31,120 nt of DNA from a virus. The stretch lies in IMG/VR virus record IMGVR_UViG_3300024475_000182, positions 1 to 31,120 of that record; one strand, 5' to 3'. The translations under genes and the position numbers were made by a program. The notes beneath the pieces were generated by a model. That model had not been told where the DNA came from and did not search any database. It saw nothing but the letters and a program-made list of their open reading frames with translations. Shown here piece after piece: positions 4,681 to 25,056 of the stretch (within the stretch, counting starts at the first letter, position 1; each line of letters begins with the position of its first letter).

Positions 4681-5271
4681 ATGACTAAGAATGAGTTATT
4701 AGCAGAGCTTTACAAGAGCCACAAAAAGTGGGTTGGATTGGCTGTTAAGTTTGTAGGCTCTAATATGTTTGCTGAGGATTTAGTACAAGAAGCATATTTA
4801 AAAATACACAGGTCTTTAAAAGACGTTAATAAGATTTTAAACGAAGATAACGGAATACGATTCGGTTACTTCTACAGTACTTTGTTTAGTGTTTGTATTG
4901 ATTATAAGAGGGTAAAAAGTAAGCAGCCTCTCGTTGAGTATGATGAGGTTGTTTACTCTTACCAAGTTTTAGAAGCTTTTGACATTAAAGAAAACTATGC
5001 CTTCCAGAACTTAATGGATAGTATCGACAAGGAGATAAAGCAATGGCATAGGTACGATATAATGTTTACGGACATTTACTACAAGACAGATATATCTCTA
5101 AGAGGTCTAGAAAAAGAAAGCAAGTTTATAGATGAGAATGGTAATCAGTACAAAGGCATAAGCCTAACTTCACTATACAACACATCTAAGAACTGCAAGA
5201 GAAGACTAAGAGAAAAGTTTGATGAAGATGCTCAAGATTACTTTAACGGAGACTACGACAAATTATTATAA
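4681..5271 (+). CDS. Sigma-70-like RNA polymerase sigma factor (phage-encoded)
   Basis: 196 aa. The N-terminal part resembles sigma region 2, with AEDLVQEAYLKIHR at 31-44 preceded by a helix (WVGLAVKFVG). The C-terminal part (about 138-178) looks like region 4 helix-turn-helix (ISLRGLEKES, ISLTSLYNTSKNCKRRLREKF) ending in a DYFNGDYDKLL tail. It would steer host RNA polymerase to phage promoters, plausibly late genes. No anti-sigma partner is visible. It sits in the middle of the early/replication block and is followed two bases later by the next gene. A DNA-binding regulator with a sigma-like fold is the alternative. Confidence 0.7.
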   Translation: MTKNELLAELYKSHKKWVGLAVKFVGSNMFAEDLVQEAYLKIHRSLKDVNKILNEDNGIRFGYFYSTLFSVCIDYKRVKSKQPLVEYDEVVYSYQVLEAFDIKENYAFQNLMDSIDKEIKQWHRYDIMFTDIYYKTDISLRGLEKESKFIDENGNQYKGISLTSLYNTSKNCKRRLREKFDEDAQDYFNGDYDKLL

Positions 5272-16146: not shown

Positions 16147-16506
16147 TTATAGTTTATTAGTTAGGTATCTTTCTAGTCCTGCTAATGCTCTCCAAGCTAC
16201 CTTTGTTAGGTGTAAAATACCATCTTCATCTACAGGATTAACTGTATGGTCTATTAAGTGCCTAGTTAGAGCATCGTATTCGTCTTTTGACTTATTCATA
16301 TCCCAATGTAGTGGTTTGTCTGGATGATGTTGGTCATTACCAGCCTTACTACACTTAGAAACCTCTTTTAAAGCATTTGGGAAGTACTTTAGTACTCCAC
16401 TAAACACAGGTATGTTTTTTCTAGCTTCAGCATTGCTTAAAACCTTCTCTACATACTTATATTGCCCATCTTCTTGCATTTCTGCCCATTTTTCTCTTGT
16501 ATTCAT
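16147..16506 (-). CDS. DUF5664 (dATP/dGTP diphosphohydrolase N-terminal-like, MazZ-type) protein, 119 aa
   Basis: The block K-Y-F-P-N-A-L-K-E-V-S (40-50), AGNDQHHPDKPLHWD (55-69), then DEYDALTRHLIDH (75-87) and DGILHLTKVAWRALAGL (95-111) is the signature of DUF5664, a MazG-like helical NTP pyrophosphohydrolase-related domain. A member in Vibrio phage phiVC8 (MazZ) hydrolyses dGTP/dATP-type nucleotides and belongs to the 2-aminoadenine pathway. No PurZ or DatZ gene is seen in this window, so a link to modified bases is not claimed; a nucleotide-pool role is more cautious. Second gene of the minus operon. Confidence 0.65.
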   Translation of the reverse strand: MNTREKWAEMQEDGQYKYVEKVLSNAEARKNIPVFSGVLKYFPNALKEVSKCSKAGNDQHHPDKPLHWDMNKSKDEYDALTRHLIDHTVNPVDEDGILHLTKVAWRALAGLERYLTNKL

Positions 16507-16507
16507 A

Positions 16508-16669
16508 CTAATTCTTTTGATATATTCTGGTTATTACTAATTGAATGATTCCAAAGTAGAAAACAATGTCTTCTTCGTAAACTTCTTCGCTTTCGAAGGG
16601 ATAATGCCTTAATCCTAGCAATAAACCCTTAAAAAACCCAATTCTTACCTCATATCTTACTAAATCCAT
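16508..16669 (-). CDS. Hypothetical protein, 53 aa (first gene of minus operon)
   Basis: MDLVRYEVRIGFFKGLLLGLRHYPFE, then an acidic patch and FYFGIIQLVITRIYQKN. The V-R-I-G-F-F-x-G-x-x-L-G-x-R-x-Y pattern resembles very small phage proteins with a shared beta-hairpin; function unknown. Its stop is one base from the DUF5664-like start. Preceded by a minus-strand promoter box. Confidence 0.5.
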   Translation of the reverse strand: MDLVRYEVRIGFFKGLLLGLRHYPFESEEVYEEDIVFYFGIIQLVITRIYQKN

Positions 16670-16698
16670 TGATTAAATTGTTAATAATTAATATTAAA

Positions 16699-16728
16699 TT
16701 GACTTTGATATTAGCAAATATAGTTTTA
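16699..16728 (+). promoter_or_regulatory. Candidate promoter for the virion operon
   Basis: TTG at 16699-16701, 19 bases, TAGTTTTA at 16721-16728 (one mismatch to TAnnTTTG). It overlaps the divergent minus -7 box, so the two promoters may compete. This could instead be a late promoter read by the phage sigma-like factor, with its own consensus. Confidence 0.35.
16715..16722 (-). promoter_or_regulatory. -7 box for the minus operon
   Basis: Minus strand TATATTTG (16722-16715), a full TAnnTTTG match, about 45 bases before ATG 16669. No clear -33 TTG at 19-20 bases, so it may depend on an activator. Confidence 0.45.
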
Positions 16729-16782
16729 TTTTATTTATTTACCTAATAAAAAGACAAAAAACATAAAAAACGTTATAAGATT

Positions 16783-17502
16783 ATGAGTAAAATAGAACTT
16801 GATATTAGTGTTCCTAAAAATTTAAGTGGTATAACTGTACAGCAGTACCAAGAATACGCTAAACTATGGGAAGACAACAAGGAAGTGGAGAATTATGAGT
16901 TTATCAACAAGAAAACACTAGAGATATTCTGTGGATTGGACTTAAAGGAGTCTTATAAGATACCAATTAACACTTTTGATAGCATATTAAGTCACATAAA
17001 TGACTGTTTTAATGAAGACAAGCCATTTATAAACAGATTTAAAATGATTAGTGCAGAAGGTGTTGCTGTAGAGTTTGGTTTTGAGCCATCTCTAGATAAA
17101 ATATCATACGGAGCATTTAAAGATGCTGAAAATTACATTGGAAACGTAAAAGACTTGCATAAATTAATGGCTGTTCTTTACAGACCTGTAATAAAAGACA
17201 TAAGCACTAAGCACCACTACAGAATAGCTGACTATGAGGGTAGTGATAAGTTCTCCGAAGTGATGAAAGATGCACCAGTTAACGTAGCATTAGGAATGAA
17301 GGTTTTTTTTTATCGTTTAGGGACAAAATTGTCGAAATATACAATGGACTCTTTAATGGAGCAGGCGAAATTAACGACCAACAAGGAAGGAAAGCAGCTT
17401 TTGGAAGAAAATGGGGAGATTATCAGTCGTTTCTATGCCTCGCACAAGACGATGTACGAAGACTTGACGAAGTCTCAAAGCTTCCATTACACCAATGTAT
17501 GA
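16783..17502 (+). CDS. Tail assembly chaperone, 0-frame product (G-like), 239 aa
   Basis: First gene of the virion operon. The 0-frame product has a strand-rich N-terminus (IELDISVPKNLSGITVQQYQEYAKL) and an L-H-K-L-M-A-V-L-Y-R-P centre (126-136). It ends in a helical C-terminus (FYRLGTKLSKYTMDSLMEQAKL). Bacteroidota phages carry proteins like this, as I recall, in the position where tailed phages encode the G/GT tail chaperones that coat the tape measure before tail polymerisation. The run of nine T at 17303-17311 is inside the gene, and a long -1 frame continues to 17579. Confidence 0.65.
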   Translation: MSKIELDISVPKNLSGITVQQYQEYAKLWEDNKEVENYEFINKKTLEIFCGLDLKESYKIPINTFDSILSHINDCFNEDKPFINRFKMISAEGVAVEFGFEPSLDKISYGAFKDAENYIGNVKDLHKLMAVLYRPVIKDISTKHHYRIADYEGSDKFSEVMKDAPVNVALGMKVFFYRLGTKLSKYTMDSLMEQAKLTTNKEGKQLLEENGEIISRFYASHKTMYEDLTKSQSFHYTNV

Positions 17503-17579
17503 TGTACTTGGAATATGTACAGGACAGAGCGAAATTAGAGGCTAGATTAGTAAAAGATATACAAAATAAGAATAGATAA
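17310..17579 (+). CDS. Predicted -1 frameshift extension of tail chaperone (GT-like)
   Basis: From the slippery run T TTT TTT (17304-17310, in the 0-frame phase X XXY YYZ) the -1 frame stays open for 89 codons, to TAA 17577-17579. It reads like a real protein: GRKAAFGRKWGDYQSFLCLA, then DEVSKLPLHQCMMYLEYV, then a charged helix end. Its stop forms TAATG with the next gene, so this frame, not the 0-frame, abuts its neighbour. The fusion would be 265 aa (176 shared plus 89). Tailed phages commonly make a minor GT product this way. A sequencing error in the homopolymer is the alternative, but both frames look coding. No hairpin strong enough to be a clear stimulator was found downstream. Confidence 0.7.
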   Translation, partial: LSFRDKIVEIYNGLFNGAGEINDQQGRKAAFGRKWGDYQSFLCLAQDDVRRLDEVSKLPLHQCMMYLEYVQDRAKLEARLVKDIQNKNR

Positions 17580-18040
17580 TGGCACAAAACCAAGTTTACA
17601 ACGTACTAGACAGCTTAAAGGCACAATTATTACAGCATCCACAATGTAATACTGTTACTACAGGTAACTTATCTGATGTTGACCTAGCGAAAACAACGAT
17701 ATTTCCCTTAACACACTTAATTGTTGATACAACAACCCTAAGTTCTAAGACAATTACAATAACATTAAACGTTATTTGTATGGATATAGTCGATATAAAC
17801 AAAGATAAAGCTACAGATAACTTCTATGGTAACGACAACTCTCAAGATATCTTAAATACGCAACTAAACGTCTTAAATTACCTATTTATGCAATTAAAGA
17901 GGGGAGACTTATGGGATATTAGGCTAATTACCGATGAGGATATGAATGCAACTCCTTTTATGGAGAAATATGAGAATATGTTAGCTGGATGGGAAGGTTC
18001 TATACAAATACAATTACCTAACGAGATAAATATCTGTTAA
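17579..18040 (+). CDS. Tail terminator-like structural protein, 153 aa
   Basis: A Bacteroidota phage protein type: FPLTHLIVDTTTLSSKTITITLNVICMDIVDINKD (shown in parts: FPLTHLIVDT, ITLNVICMDIVD) and NSQDILNTQLNVLNYL. LAGWEGSIQIQLPNEINIC lies at the end. The size, strand-helix pattern and position after the chaperone and before a gp10-like gene fit a tail terminator or tail-completion protein. No direct motif proves it. TAATG couplings at both ends. Confidence 0.5.
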   Translation: MAQNQVYNVLDSLKAQLLQHPQCNTVTTGNLSDVDLAKTTIFPLTHLIVDTTTLSSKTITITLNVICMDIVDINKDKATDNFYGNDNSQDILNTQLNVLNYLFMQLKRGDLWDIRLITDEDMNATPFMEKYENMLAGWEGSIQIQLPNEINIC

Positions 18041-18573
18041 TGGAAAAGAAAAACCTTGCAGCAGAGCTAAATAAGATAGCTGAAGAATTTAAGGTTAGGC
18101 TTCAAAGAGGAGCTAGACTAGATAAGACTGTTGCTACAGGTAAGTTTGCCAACTCGTTTGATGTTAAAGTAAAAGATGATTCTATAGAAGTAAAATCTAA
18201 TGCAGAATACGCAAAGTATGTTGTTGATGGTGCTTTACCATCCAATAGTAATGTAGGTTGGGAGAAGAAGAGGCAAGGAATAGAGTCTTGGATAAAGGCT
18301 AAAGGTATTAGACCTTATAGACAACTAAAGAGTGGATATAAGTTTGCTAAAACATCAACAATAAAAGATAGTGCTTATAAAAGTGCTGTTTTTGCTATAA
18401 TGAAGAGTATAGCTGATAGAGGTACAATAAAAAGGTTTGGCTACAAAGGTAGTAATTTATTTGAAAGAGTGTATAAGGAGATTGAAGGTAAGATAGGTGC
18501 TGATATAACGGAAGCATACTCTGAAGATTTAAGAATTGAATTAAGAAAAATAATAAATATAAGCAATGAGTAA
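18040..18573 (+). CDS. HK97 gp10-like tail-completion protein, 177 aa
   Basis: Helix (LAAELNKIAEEFKVRLQRGARL), then ATGKFANSFDVKVKDDSIEV and NAEYAKYVVDGALPS (75-89). This is the small all-in-one layout of gp10-type proteins, in which A-x-Y-A-x-x-V-x-x-G is typical. Such proteins help join or finish the head-tail interface. A long helical C-terminus follows. Starts by TAATG on the previous gene; overlaps the next by 8 bases. Confidence 0.65.
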   Translation: MEKKNLAAELNKIAEEFKVRLQRGARLDKTVATGKFANSFDVKVKDDSIEVKSNAEYAKYVVDGALPSNSNVGWEKKRQGIESWIKAKGIRPYRQLKSGYKFAKTSTIKDSAYKSAVFAIMKSIADRGTIKRFGYKGSNLFERVYKEIEGKIGADITEAYSEDLRIELRKIINISNE

Positions 18574-22881: not shown

Positions 22882-25056
22882 ATGGCAGAAGAAAATAAGA
22901 TTTTATACAGAATTACTGTAGACGCAAAAACTGCAACAGGTACTATATCAAATATGTCTGGTGGGTTTAAAAGGACTCAAATAGCTGTAGAAGACCTTAA
23001 TGAGGTTTTAGGAGAGATGAACGGAGAGATGTCAAGAACTACTGGAGGTATCGGTAGGACTATGGCTTCGTTAAAAAGGCAGAGGTCTAATTTACAAATA
23101 AACAGTAAAGAATATCAGAATGTGACAAAATCGATGAGATTCTATCAGAGTCAAATGGATATGTCTACTGGAGCAACTGGTTCTGCATCTTCTGCTGCTA
23201 TGGAATTAGGTAGGGTTTTATCTGATGCACCTTATGGTATTAGAGGTGTTGCGAATAACATTTCTCAGTTTGCTTCTCAAATGGCTTTTGCTGCTAAATC
23301 AACAGGTAGTTTAAGATTAGCTGTTAAAGACTTATTTAAAGCTTTAACTGGACCTTTAGGTATATTACTAGCTATACAAGGTGTTATTGCTGTTATTGAG
23401 AAAATGTCAATGTCTAAAAAGAAAGCTAAGGAAGATTCTGAGAACCTAAATAAAGCATTAAAGAATGAAATTAAAACACTAGAAGGTTACGAATCTGTTT
23501 TAAACAATGCAAACTCTAGTTTAGAGGATAGAAACGGGGCTATAATGGCTGCTATAGCTGGTAATAAGAAATACGCTAAATCTATACTAGAAGGAAATGA
23601 TACGTTGGTTGGTCAAGAATCTGCACTTAAAGCCTTACTTGAAGAAAAGAAAAAGCAATTAGAATTAGACAATAAACTTAAAGAATTAAATCCCTTAAAC
23701 GAGAAGCTTAAAGAAGAAACTAGGTCTGTAGAATCATTAAAAGCTAAACTTGAAGAGTTAAAAAGTAGTCACATTAGGGTCGCAGCATCAGGTAAGGATG
23801 GAAGTGATGGAGCTATGAGGAGGTATTTAGAAGAAAGATTAGGATTGCAAGAACTTATAAATGACCTAGAAAGACAAAAGGAATTGCTAGATGAAATTCA
23901 AGGATTAGTTGAGCCACCTAGACAAGTTGTAGAACGCTCTGTAGAATGGTATAAGCAACAAATATCTTTCGCTGAAAAAACAAGAGAACAATTATCAACA
24001 AATAGCAAGGCTTACAGAGACCAAACAAAAGTTATAGAGGGGTTAATAAAAAAATTAGAAGAAATTACTGGAAAAAAAGGAGCTAAAAGAAAAAAAGTAG
24101 ATTATTTTGACTTTAAAGGATTAGAAGAGGGTCGTGGAAAGATTATAGATGAAATAATGAAGACTAATGAAAAAATAGCTTTATTATCTGCCAAAGACAA
24201 AAAGAGTAGACTTATAATACAAAGAGACTTTCATTTAAGAAGACTTATGGCTGTAGATGGAGCTAACTCTGAACTGGTTCAAGCGTATGAAAAATATTAC
24301 AGAAAGCTAATAGAAACAGCAGAAGAAGGAGAAATAAGTTTAGGCGAAATAGTATTGAAACCTCCAAGAACAGAAGGTGCTGACAAGTACGAGATAGCTG
24401 CTGTTAGACTACAAAAAGCTTCAGAAAACTACATTCAAGTTCAAAGTAGTTTAACTAGCTTTATGAGTGGGGAGTTTGACAGACAACTAACTATAGAGCA
24501 AAATAAAACAAATGCTTTAAATAACGAACTAAACCAGAGGCTTTTAAATGAGAATTTATCTAAAGATGAAAGAGAGAGAATACAATTACAGATAGGTCAA
24601 AATGATGAAAAGTTAAGAAAGAAGCAAGAACAGATAGAGAAAAAAAGATTTAGAATGAATAAGGCTGCTAATATAGCAGGTGCTTTAGTTAATACAGCTG
24701 CAGCAGCAGCAGGAGTTATGGCTGAAGCTAAAGGTGGGTTCTTTGCAAGGCTTTCTCAAGCCTTACCAACCATTGCTTTTGGATTAGCTCAAGTAGCTAC
24801 TATTGCTAGAACAAAGTTTCAGTCTTCAGCAGGTAGTGGAGGTTCAATAGGGGCAGCAGCAGGTCGAAGTGGTGGAGAAGGAGACTCTAGGGAGTTTAAC
24901 TTCAACTTAGCAGGAAGCACACAATCAAATCAACTAACACAATCAATAGCTAGTCAATTAAGCCAACCGATACAAACGTATGTGGTTTCATCAGAAATAA
25001 CTACTCAACAACAATTAGATTTAAATATAGCTAACACAGCAACAATAGGAGGTTAA
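22882..25056 (+). CDS. Tail tape measure protein, 724 aa
   Basis: The early block MELGRVLSDAPYGIRGVANN (about 109-128) is a conserved segment of Bacteroidota phage tape-measure proteins as I know them. Hydrophobic stretches lie at about 155-175 (LTGPLGILLAIQGVIAVIEK) and 594-650 (IAGALVNTAAAAAGVMAE). Long heptad-rich charged helices fill the rest. The protein sets tail length and is ejected with DNA. Using the usual rule of about 0.15 nm per residue, its length suggests a tail near 110 nm, consistent with a siphovirus. It follows, rather than precedes, the tip genes. Confidence 0.8.
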   Translation: MAEENKILYRITVDAKTATGTISNMSGGFKRTQIAVEDLNEVLGEMNGEMSRTTGGIGRTMASLKRQRSNLQINSKEYQNVTKSMRFYQSQMDMSTGATGSASSAAMELGRVLSDAPYGIRGVANNISQFASQMAFAAKSTGSLRLAVKDLFKALTGPLGILLAIQGVIAVIEKMSMSKKKAKEDSENLNKALKNEIKTLEGYESVLNNANSSLEDRNGAIMAAIAGNKKYAKSILEGNDTLVGQESALKALLEEKKKQLELDNKLKELNPLNEKLKEETRSVESLKAKLEELKSSHIRVAASGKDGSDGAMRRYLEERLGLQELINDLERQKELLDEIQGLVEPPRQVVERSVEWYKQQISFAEKTREQLSTNSKAYRDQTKVIEGLIKKLEEITGKKGAKRKKVDYFDFKGLEEGRGKIIDEIMKTNEKIALLSAKDKKSRLIIQRDFHLRRLMAVDGANSELVQAYEKYYRKLIETAEEGEISLGEIVLKPPRTEGADKYEIAAVRLQKASENYIQVQSSLTSFMSGEFDRQLTIEQNKTNALNNELNQRLLNENLSKDERERIQLQIGQNDEKLRKKQEQIEKKRFRMNKAANIAGALVNTAAAAAGVMAEAKGGFFARLSQALPTIAFGLAQVATIARTKFQSSAGSGGSIGAAAGRSGGEGDSREFNFNLAGSTQSNQLTQSIASQLSQPIQTYVVSSEITTQQQLDLNIANTATIGG

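Follow-up and report, generated by a model that had tools for sequence, protein, structure and literature searches.

Does a run of nine T residues inside a marine bacteriophage gene join that gene to a second, overlapping reading frame, and if so, is the shift made by the ribosome or by RNA polymerase? The window, as the whole stretch of DNA analyzed is called here, is a 31,120-bp virus record with a G+C content of 32%, and an earlier note on it had predicted a programmed -1 frameshift in a tail chaperone gene at this run.

The T9 run and its reading frames

All features described in this section lie on the plus strand. By normal decoding, the 0-frame ORF (16783–17502) yields a G-like protein of 239 amino acids ending at the TGA at 17500–17502. 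Within it, the T9 run (17303–17311), read as GTT TTT TTT TAT, is the only A or T run of at least nine nucleotides in the window, and it contains the heptamer T_TTT_TTT (17304–17310) in the X_XXY_YYZ phase. From the heptamer, the -1 frame is open to a TAA at 17577–17579, which gives a T-like extension (17304–17579) of 91 codons plus the stop, or 89 codons when counted from 17310; the stop forms a TAATG overlap with the ATG (17579–17581) of the next ORF, a gene encoding 153 amino acids (17579–18040). The two frames overlap at 17312–17499, and a further stretch 3′ of the 0-frame TGA (17503–17576) is read in the -1 frame only. A conserved motif of the extension, FFLxFRxR...KWGWYQS, ends as KWGDYQS in the window copy. 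In the 14 other window genes, which contributed 657 stop-free stretches in the -1 frame, the longest was 52 codons; the open -1 frame at T9 exceeds chance expectation. The ORF limits, the phase of the heptamer, the length of the open frame and the stop–start overlap that the earlier note had given for this gene all hold at these positions.

Relatives of the gene and constraint on the overlap

Close relatives of the 0-frame protein were found on nine virus contigs, with 82–97% amino acid identity, and all nine have the T9, the same open -1 extension, and DNA that is near-invariant between the run and the 0-frame stop; in these same contigs the gene 5′ of the run is free to vary. More distant relatives were recruited with the next gene as bait, with the extension, with the 0-frame protein, and by remote alignment and genome searches, giving several hundred loci, among them one in the cultured Nonlabens phage P12024L and others carried by bacterial genomes. 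Hundreds of related phages retain the T run. Where profile searches found both halves at a locus, the extension was in the -1 frame in 300 of 300 cases, so that disrupted -1 frames in relatives, which the earlier note had named as evidence to seek against the shift, were seen at 0 of 300 loci, and every one of the 240 distinct junctions fell on a T run. These relatives were divided into 72 lineages, defined by extension identity <70%. The hidden C-terminal domain that the earlier note had proposed to be reached by a programmed -1 shift at T9 is strongly supported by this comparison.

A chance ORF was ruled out by the relatives from independent samples, the cultured phage and the genome-borne copies. 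Sequencing error was likewise rejected: T9 recurs in independent metagenome contigs, in P12024L and in the genome-borne copies, and homopolymer miscounting is therefore excluded. One family copy (L209, JAHZJZ010000222.1) lies on a contig of an ‘Epsilonproteobacteria’ MAG, although the family is otherwise found mainly in Bacteroidota phages; its placement is likely binning contamination. With L302 as the query, a viral relative was not found.

Analysis of codon substitution in relatives, the check that the earlier note had suggested, revealed that synonymous differences in the 0-frame (the share of identical-amino-acid codons that differ synonymously) fall at the run and recover in the next gene. 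Among 398 moderately diverged pairs, the share was 0.277 upstream of the run, fell to 0.090 within the overlap, and rose again to 0.289 in the next gene. When 258 pairs of an anchored set were resolved by position, the five codons preceding the run gave 0.261 and the five that start with the run gave 0.009, with values of mostly 0.05–0.12 further on; the onset of the constraint therefore coincides with the run. Within the window clade, the share dropped from 0.192 upstream to 0.032 in the overlap. An early ATG or GTG in the extension is absent in 69 of the 72 lineages, and thus an independent start is no explanation of the extension. Judged from these comparisons, the -1 frame is a real, dual-coded, conserved extension beginning at the T run.

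Flavobacterium phage 6H came up in a fold search (described below), and a tblastn search started from it reached distant cultured phages, Duneviridae and others, in which both parts are present in one ORF of 274–301 amino acids, specifically FPSV-F7, 23T, laban6-1, Ingeline_1, and Microcystis phage Mea-Yong924-1. In profile comparisons, residues 11–209 of the fusion ORF aligned with G (E = 9e-11), ending at FF, and residues 207–281 aligned with T (E = 1e-5), starting at FF. In the fused forms the T run at the junction does not exceed T6, and an extension in another frame was not found. The fused forms support a G–T fusion as the predicted product of the shift and, across the genomes compared, show that a long T run accompanies the split arrangement. 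The recorded host of Mea-Yong924-1 (L313) is a cyanobacterium, yet the fused form otherwise occurs in phages of Bacteroidota. In 6H itself (L308, NC_021867; 10352–10927, minus strand), gp10 ends early, at 191 amino acids, and the T part lies in another frame, at a place where FPSV-F7 and 23T have one continuous ORF of 293 amino acids. As these close relatives are continuous, 6H was rejected as a relative lacking T9 and its frame break was attributed to a local difference, possibly a sequence error.

Run length and the mechanism of the shift

At the 240 distinct junctions the run was T9 in 194, T10 in 45, and T12 in one; T7 or T8 runs were absent, and the run was at least nine in 72/72 lineages. 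T9 was seen in all three codon phases: the usual NTT TTT TTT TNN, as in the window; TTT TTT TTT CTG (e.g., L209 and L220); and NNT TTT TTT TTN, with a first codon of GGT in L215, GCT in L218 and L301 (e.g., GCT TTT TTT TTG), ACT in L302, and TAT in L304. Where a T was lost at one end of the run, a T was gained at the other. When 5′ and 3′ extents were shuffled, in a procedure that ignores relatedness, 0 of 200,000 shuffles left every one of the 72 lineages with a run of at least nine, and the lineages behind this argument are not independent of one another. On a tree whose deep branches are long and uncertain, ∼12 changes of labels (run ends plus fused form) were counted, with zero visits to lengths below nine. 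Hydrophobic codons beside the heptamer may account for part of the nine-T length.

The in-phase T_TTT_TTT is present in one copy in each of the 72 lineages, and neither another heptamer nor a TTC interruption was found in any of them. Upstream in the same genes, Phe is encoded by 460 TTT and 153 TTC codons (25% TTC), and C at the Z position would be synonymous in both frames in most lineages, including those with the commonest context (TTT TAY). Searches around the site for stimulators revealed no downstream RNA structure (mean Z -0.18 versus -0.08 to -0.33 in controls), no upstream fold stimulator, no enrichment of Shine–Dalgarno (SD)-like elements (0.18 versus a background of 0.15), and no Rfam match. 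A stimulator is usual, but not obligatory, for ribosomal -1 frameshifting. Seven in-phase T are enough for a ribosome, whereas the 9-bp RNA:DNA hybrid of a polymerase calls for approximately nine, in any phase. Transcriptional slippage therefore fits better with a run of at least nine T in any codon phase and without stimulators, and since the in-phase T_TTT_TTT is always present, ribosomal slippage may coexist with it. On these patterns, transcriptional slippage from U9 to U10 is favored, with somewhat better than even confidence, over ribosomal slippage as the source of the fusion, and the two may act together.

Under the proposed mechanism, two proteins with the same first ∼176 residues would come from one gene. 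The 239-amino-acid G-like protein would result from normal decoding, and a minority of products would shift at T9 and gain the 91-codon -1 domain, forming a GT-like protein of ∼265 amino acids. At the run, the ∼9-bp hybrid of RNA polymerase would be wholly rU:dA, and the transcript would slip back with the addition of one U (U10), placing the -1 frame in register; ribosomes that slip by -1 on the in-phase U_UUU_UUU may also contribute to the fusion. One extra U gives exactly the 265-amino-acid fusion, and the U8 and U11 readings end at 178–179 amino acids because the +1 frame is closed by a TAG (17318–17320, plus strand) 6 nt past the run. A +1 stop occurs at this 6-nt spacing in 60 of the 72 lineages and within nine codons in all; the spacing is partly expected from base composition and coding.

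Transcription insertions in Escherichia coli and Buchnera are concentrated in A/T runs, are ∼80% single-nucleotide, and rise exponentially with run length, and the RNA:DNA hybrid is 9 bp (PMC5574713). T runs >8 are cited for transcriptional realignment (PMC3711429), and many bacteria avoid A/T runs from nine on (a 9A/9T threshold), although some AT-rich bacteria may suppress slippage (PMC1088944). A published measurement of T9 slippage by a Bacteroidota RNA polymerase was not found in the literature searched. The window encodes a protein with a sigma-70 region 2 (4681–5271; Pfam E = 1e-6), and P12024L encodes one too (gp35); the window protein suggests use of the host RNA polymerase, which it could direct to late genes.

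The earlier note had instead implied slippage on the X_XXY_YYZ heptamer. In a classical programmed -1 ribosomal frameshift, two Phe tRNAs would slip in tandem on U_UUU_UUU, and several points speak for it: the heptamer is in phase in 72/72 lineages, low-level -1 ribosomal shifting occurs for this gene pair in lambda and many tailed phages (PMC5009743), and in E. coli both UUU and UUC are prone to shifting and pyrimidine-only ZZN codons are good shifters (PMC4066793). However, a ribosomal shift does not explain why T7 and T8 are missing, why the nine-T floor slides through the codon phases, or why U_UUU_UUC and all other heptamers are absent from the 72 lineages, and neither a downstream structure nor an SD-like element accompanies the site. 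As the sole mechanism it is possible but rather doubtful.

Two further readings were weighed. If the -1 ORF were a separate small gene, expressed unfused by coupled re-initiation within or near the end of G, the window’s ATGATG (-1 frame), which overlaps the 0-frame TGA, could serve as its start, and P12024L gp40/gp41 are indeed annotated as two genes; however, an ATG near the 0-frame stop occurs in just 27 of the 72 lineages, early -1 starts are as scarce as described above, both the conserved -1 domain and the drop in synonymous differences set in at the T run, which lies 5′ of any such start, and distant relatives carry the fusion as one ORF, all of which make re-initiation very improbable. 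Phase variation at the DNA level, with the T run acting through replication slippage as a hypermutable on/off switch for the fusion, would accord with the different run lengths among lineages (9, 10, and 12) and with the general hypermutability of long T runs, but is hardly credible, given that the extension keeps to the -1 frame at all 300 loci whatever the run length and that in no genome was a gain or loss of T found to have placed the extension in frame.

Gene identity and comparison with known systems

The virion genes of the window include a terminase, a portal, a head protease, a capsid-like gene, and an HK97-gp10-like gene (18040–18573), and the recoded gene is the first plus-strand gene of this block, in agreement with the earlier note that it opens the virion operon. 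A gap (16507–16782) separates it from the upstream gene (16147–16506), which is on the opposite strand, and the gap should therefore hold the promoter of the virion operon. In several relatives (L030, L078, L116, L238, L252, and L293), a second T9 is present ∼500–640 nt upstream of the slippage run, near the gene start; this second run looks terminator-like, consistent with the gene opening a transcription unit. A weak tape-measure candidate is present at 22882–25056 (PHROG 18891, E = 0.004), and four genes lie between it and the recoded gene.

The 0-frame protein matched PHROG 32199, to which no function is assigned, in 56/56 members (55 aligned relatives), and 4 of 56 also had a weak match to a ‘tail protein’ PHROG. 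PHROG 38404 matched the extension in 19 of 66 family members; the window copy did not match at E < 0.1. AlphaFold predicted the 0-frame protein with a pLDDT of 87 and the extension as all-helical with a pLDDT of 81. No relevant Pfam, function-named PHROG, PDB sequence, or PDB fold match was found for either part, and the best match to a chaperone-named fold was not significant (E = 0.53); the gene is therefore not filed under a known chaperone family. Significant matches in a fold search of viral predictions were all to uncharacterized proteins, including those of P12024S and Flavobacterium phage 6H.

The candidate identity of the gene comes from its architecture, with a G part plus a predicted frame-shifted GT product in the virion block of a tailed phage, the arrangement expected of a G/GT-type chaperone. 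The best reading of the gene is probably a G/GT-type tail-assembly chaperone, and the pair would act like lambda gpG/gpGT, in which G coats the tape measure and T brings in the tail-tube protein. The tail-chaperone assignment of the earlier note thus stands as a good inference from architecture, but known chaperone families, PDB entries, and annotated relatives gave no match that would bear it out. The recoding could instead be real in some other virion-assembly or connector factor, a reading compatible with either slippage mechanism: the gene heads the virion block beside connector-type genes (the HK97-gp10-like gene in the window and an adaptor in Ingeline_1), it is not directly before the tape-measure candidate, and it matches no chaperone family. 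Against this, no recoded gene of long-tailed phages is better known than the one with the G/GT-type frame shift (PMC5009743), and the sizes of ∼240 + 90 amino acids, the layout, and the all-helical extension fit G/GT; a connector factor is accordingly considered unlikely.

Frame-shifted tail chaperones are well known. In the open-access literature searched, no report was found of this gene family, of its T9 site, or of a tail chaperone made by transcriptional slippage. It is about an even prospect, taken as one joint claim from the sequence patterns, that in a large group of Bacteroidota phages the proportions of the tail-assembly chaperone pair are set when RNA polymerase slips on a T run that must be nine or longer, in place of the ribosomal shift that other tailed phages use, and that the overlap of ∼65 codons is dual-coded. 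If true, these phages would offer a testable case in which a fixed ratio of short to long chaperone is solved at transcription rather than translation, and the junction collection would be a large natural data set for minimum homopolymer length. Annotation is also corrected: PHROG 32199 and PHROG 38404, both families without an assigned function, represent the two halves of a single recoded gene, and PHROG 25418 contains the in-frame fusion of those halves.

Among known systems, lambda gpG/gpGT and its tailed-phage relatives (PMC5009743) share with the window gene a common N-terminal part, a -1 extension that ends the first gene, a neighborhood of virion genes, and an in-phase heptamer. The window gene differs in being without detectable sequence or fold similarity to gpG/gpGT and in not lying directly before the weak tape-measure candidate, and its family differs in its homopolymer of at least nine T and in the lack of detected stimulators. 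The Nonlabens phages P12024L and P12024S (Inhavirus) encode the same two domains as the window gene (gp40/gp41 and gp38/gp39), and the T9 and -1 relation are confirmed in P12024L; however, the overlap is only 84 nt and the domains are annotated as two hypothetical proteins without a noted frame shift. The fusions of Duneviridae and related phages (Flavobacterium FPSV-F7, 23T, and laban6-1, Cellulophaga Ingeline, and Mea-Yong924-1; PHROG 25418) contain homologous G and T parts with the same FF joint, but in a single ORF with a short junction run and no alternative-frame extension. Outside phages, transcriptional slippage on a U run in Shigella flexneri mxiE inserts one nucleotide and joins two overlapping ORFs (PMC1088944), just as a single inserted U is predicted to join the 0-frame ORF of the window to its overlapping ORF; mxiE, however, is a bacterial regulator, whereas the window gene belongs to a family that would serve phage assembly, is found mostly in Bacteroidota phages, and combines a long dual-coded overlap with slippage that is predicted. 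In Thermus thermophilus dnaX, slippage on A9 results in a shorter product (PMC1088944), and the likeness to the window is a nine-nucleotide homopolymer that gives two products from one gene, whereas dnaX differs in that its slippage shortens the product, its gene is cellular, and its run is of A.
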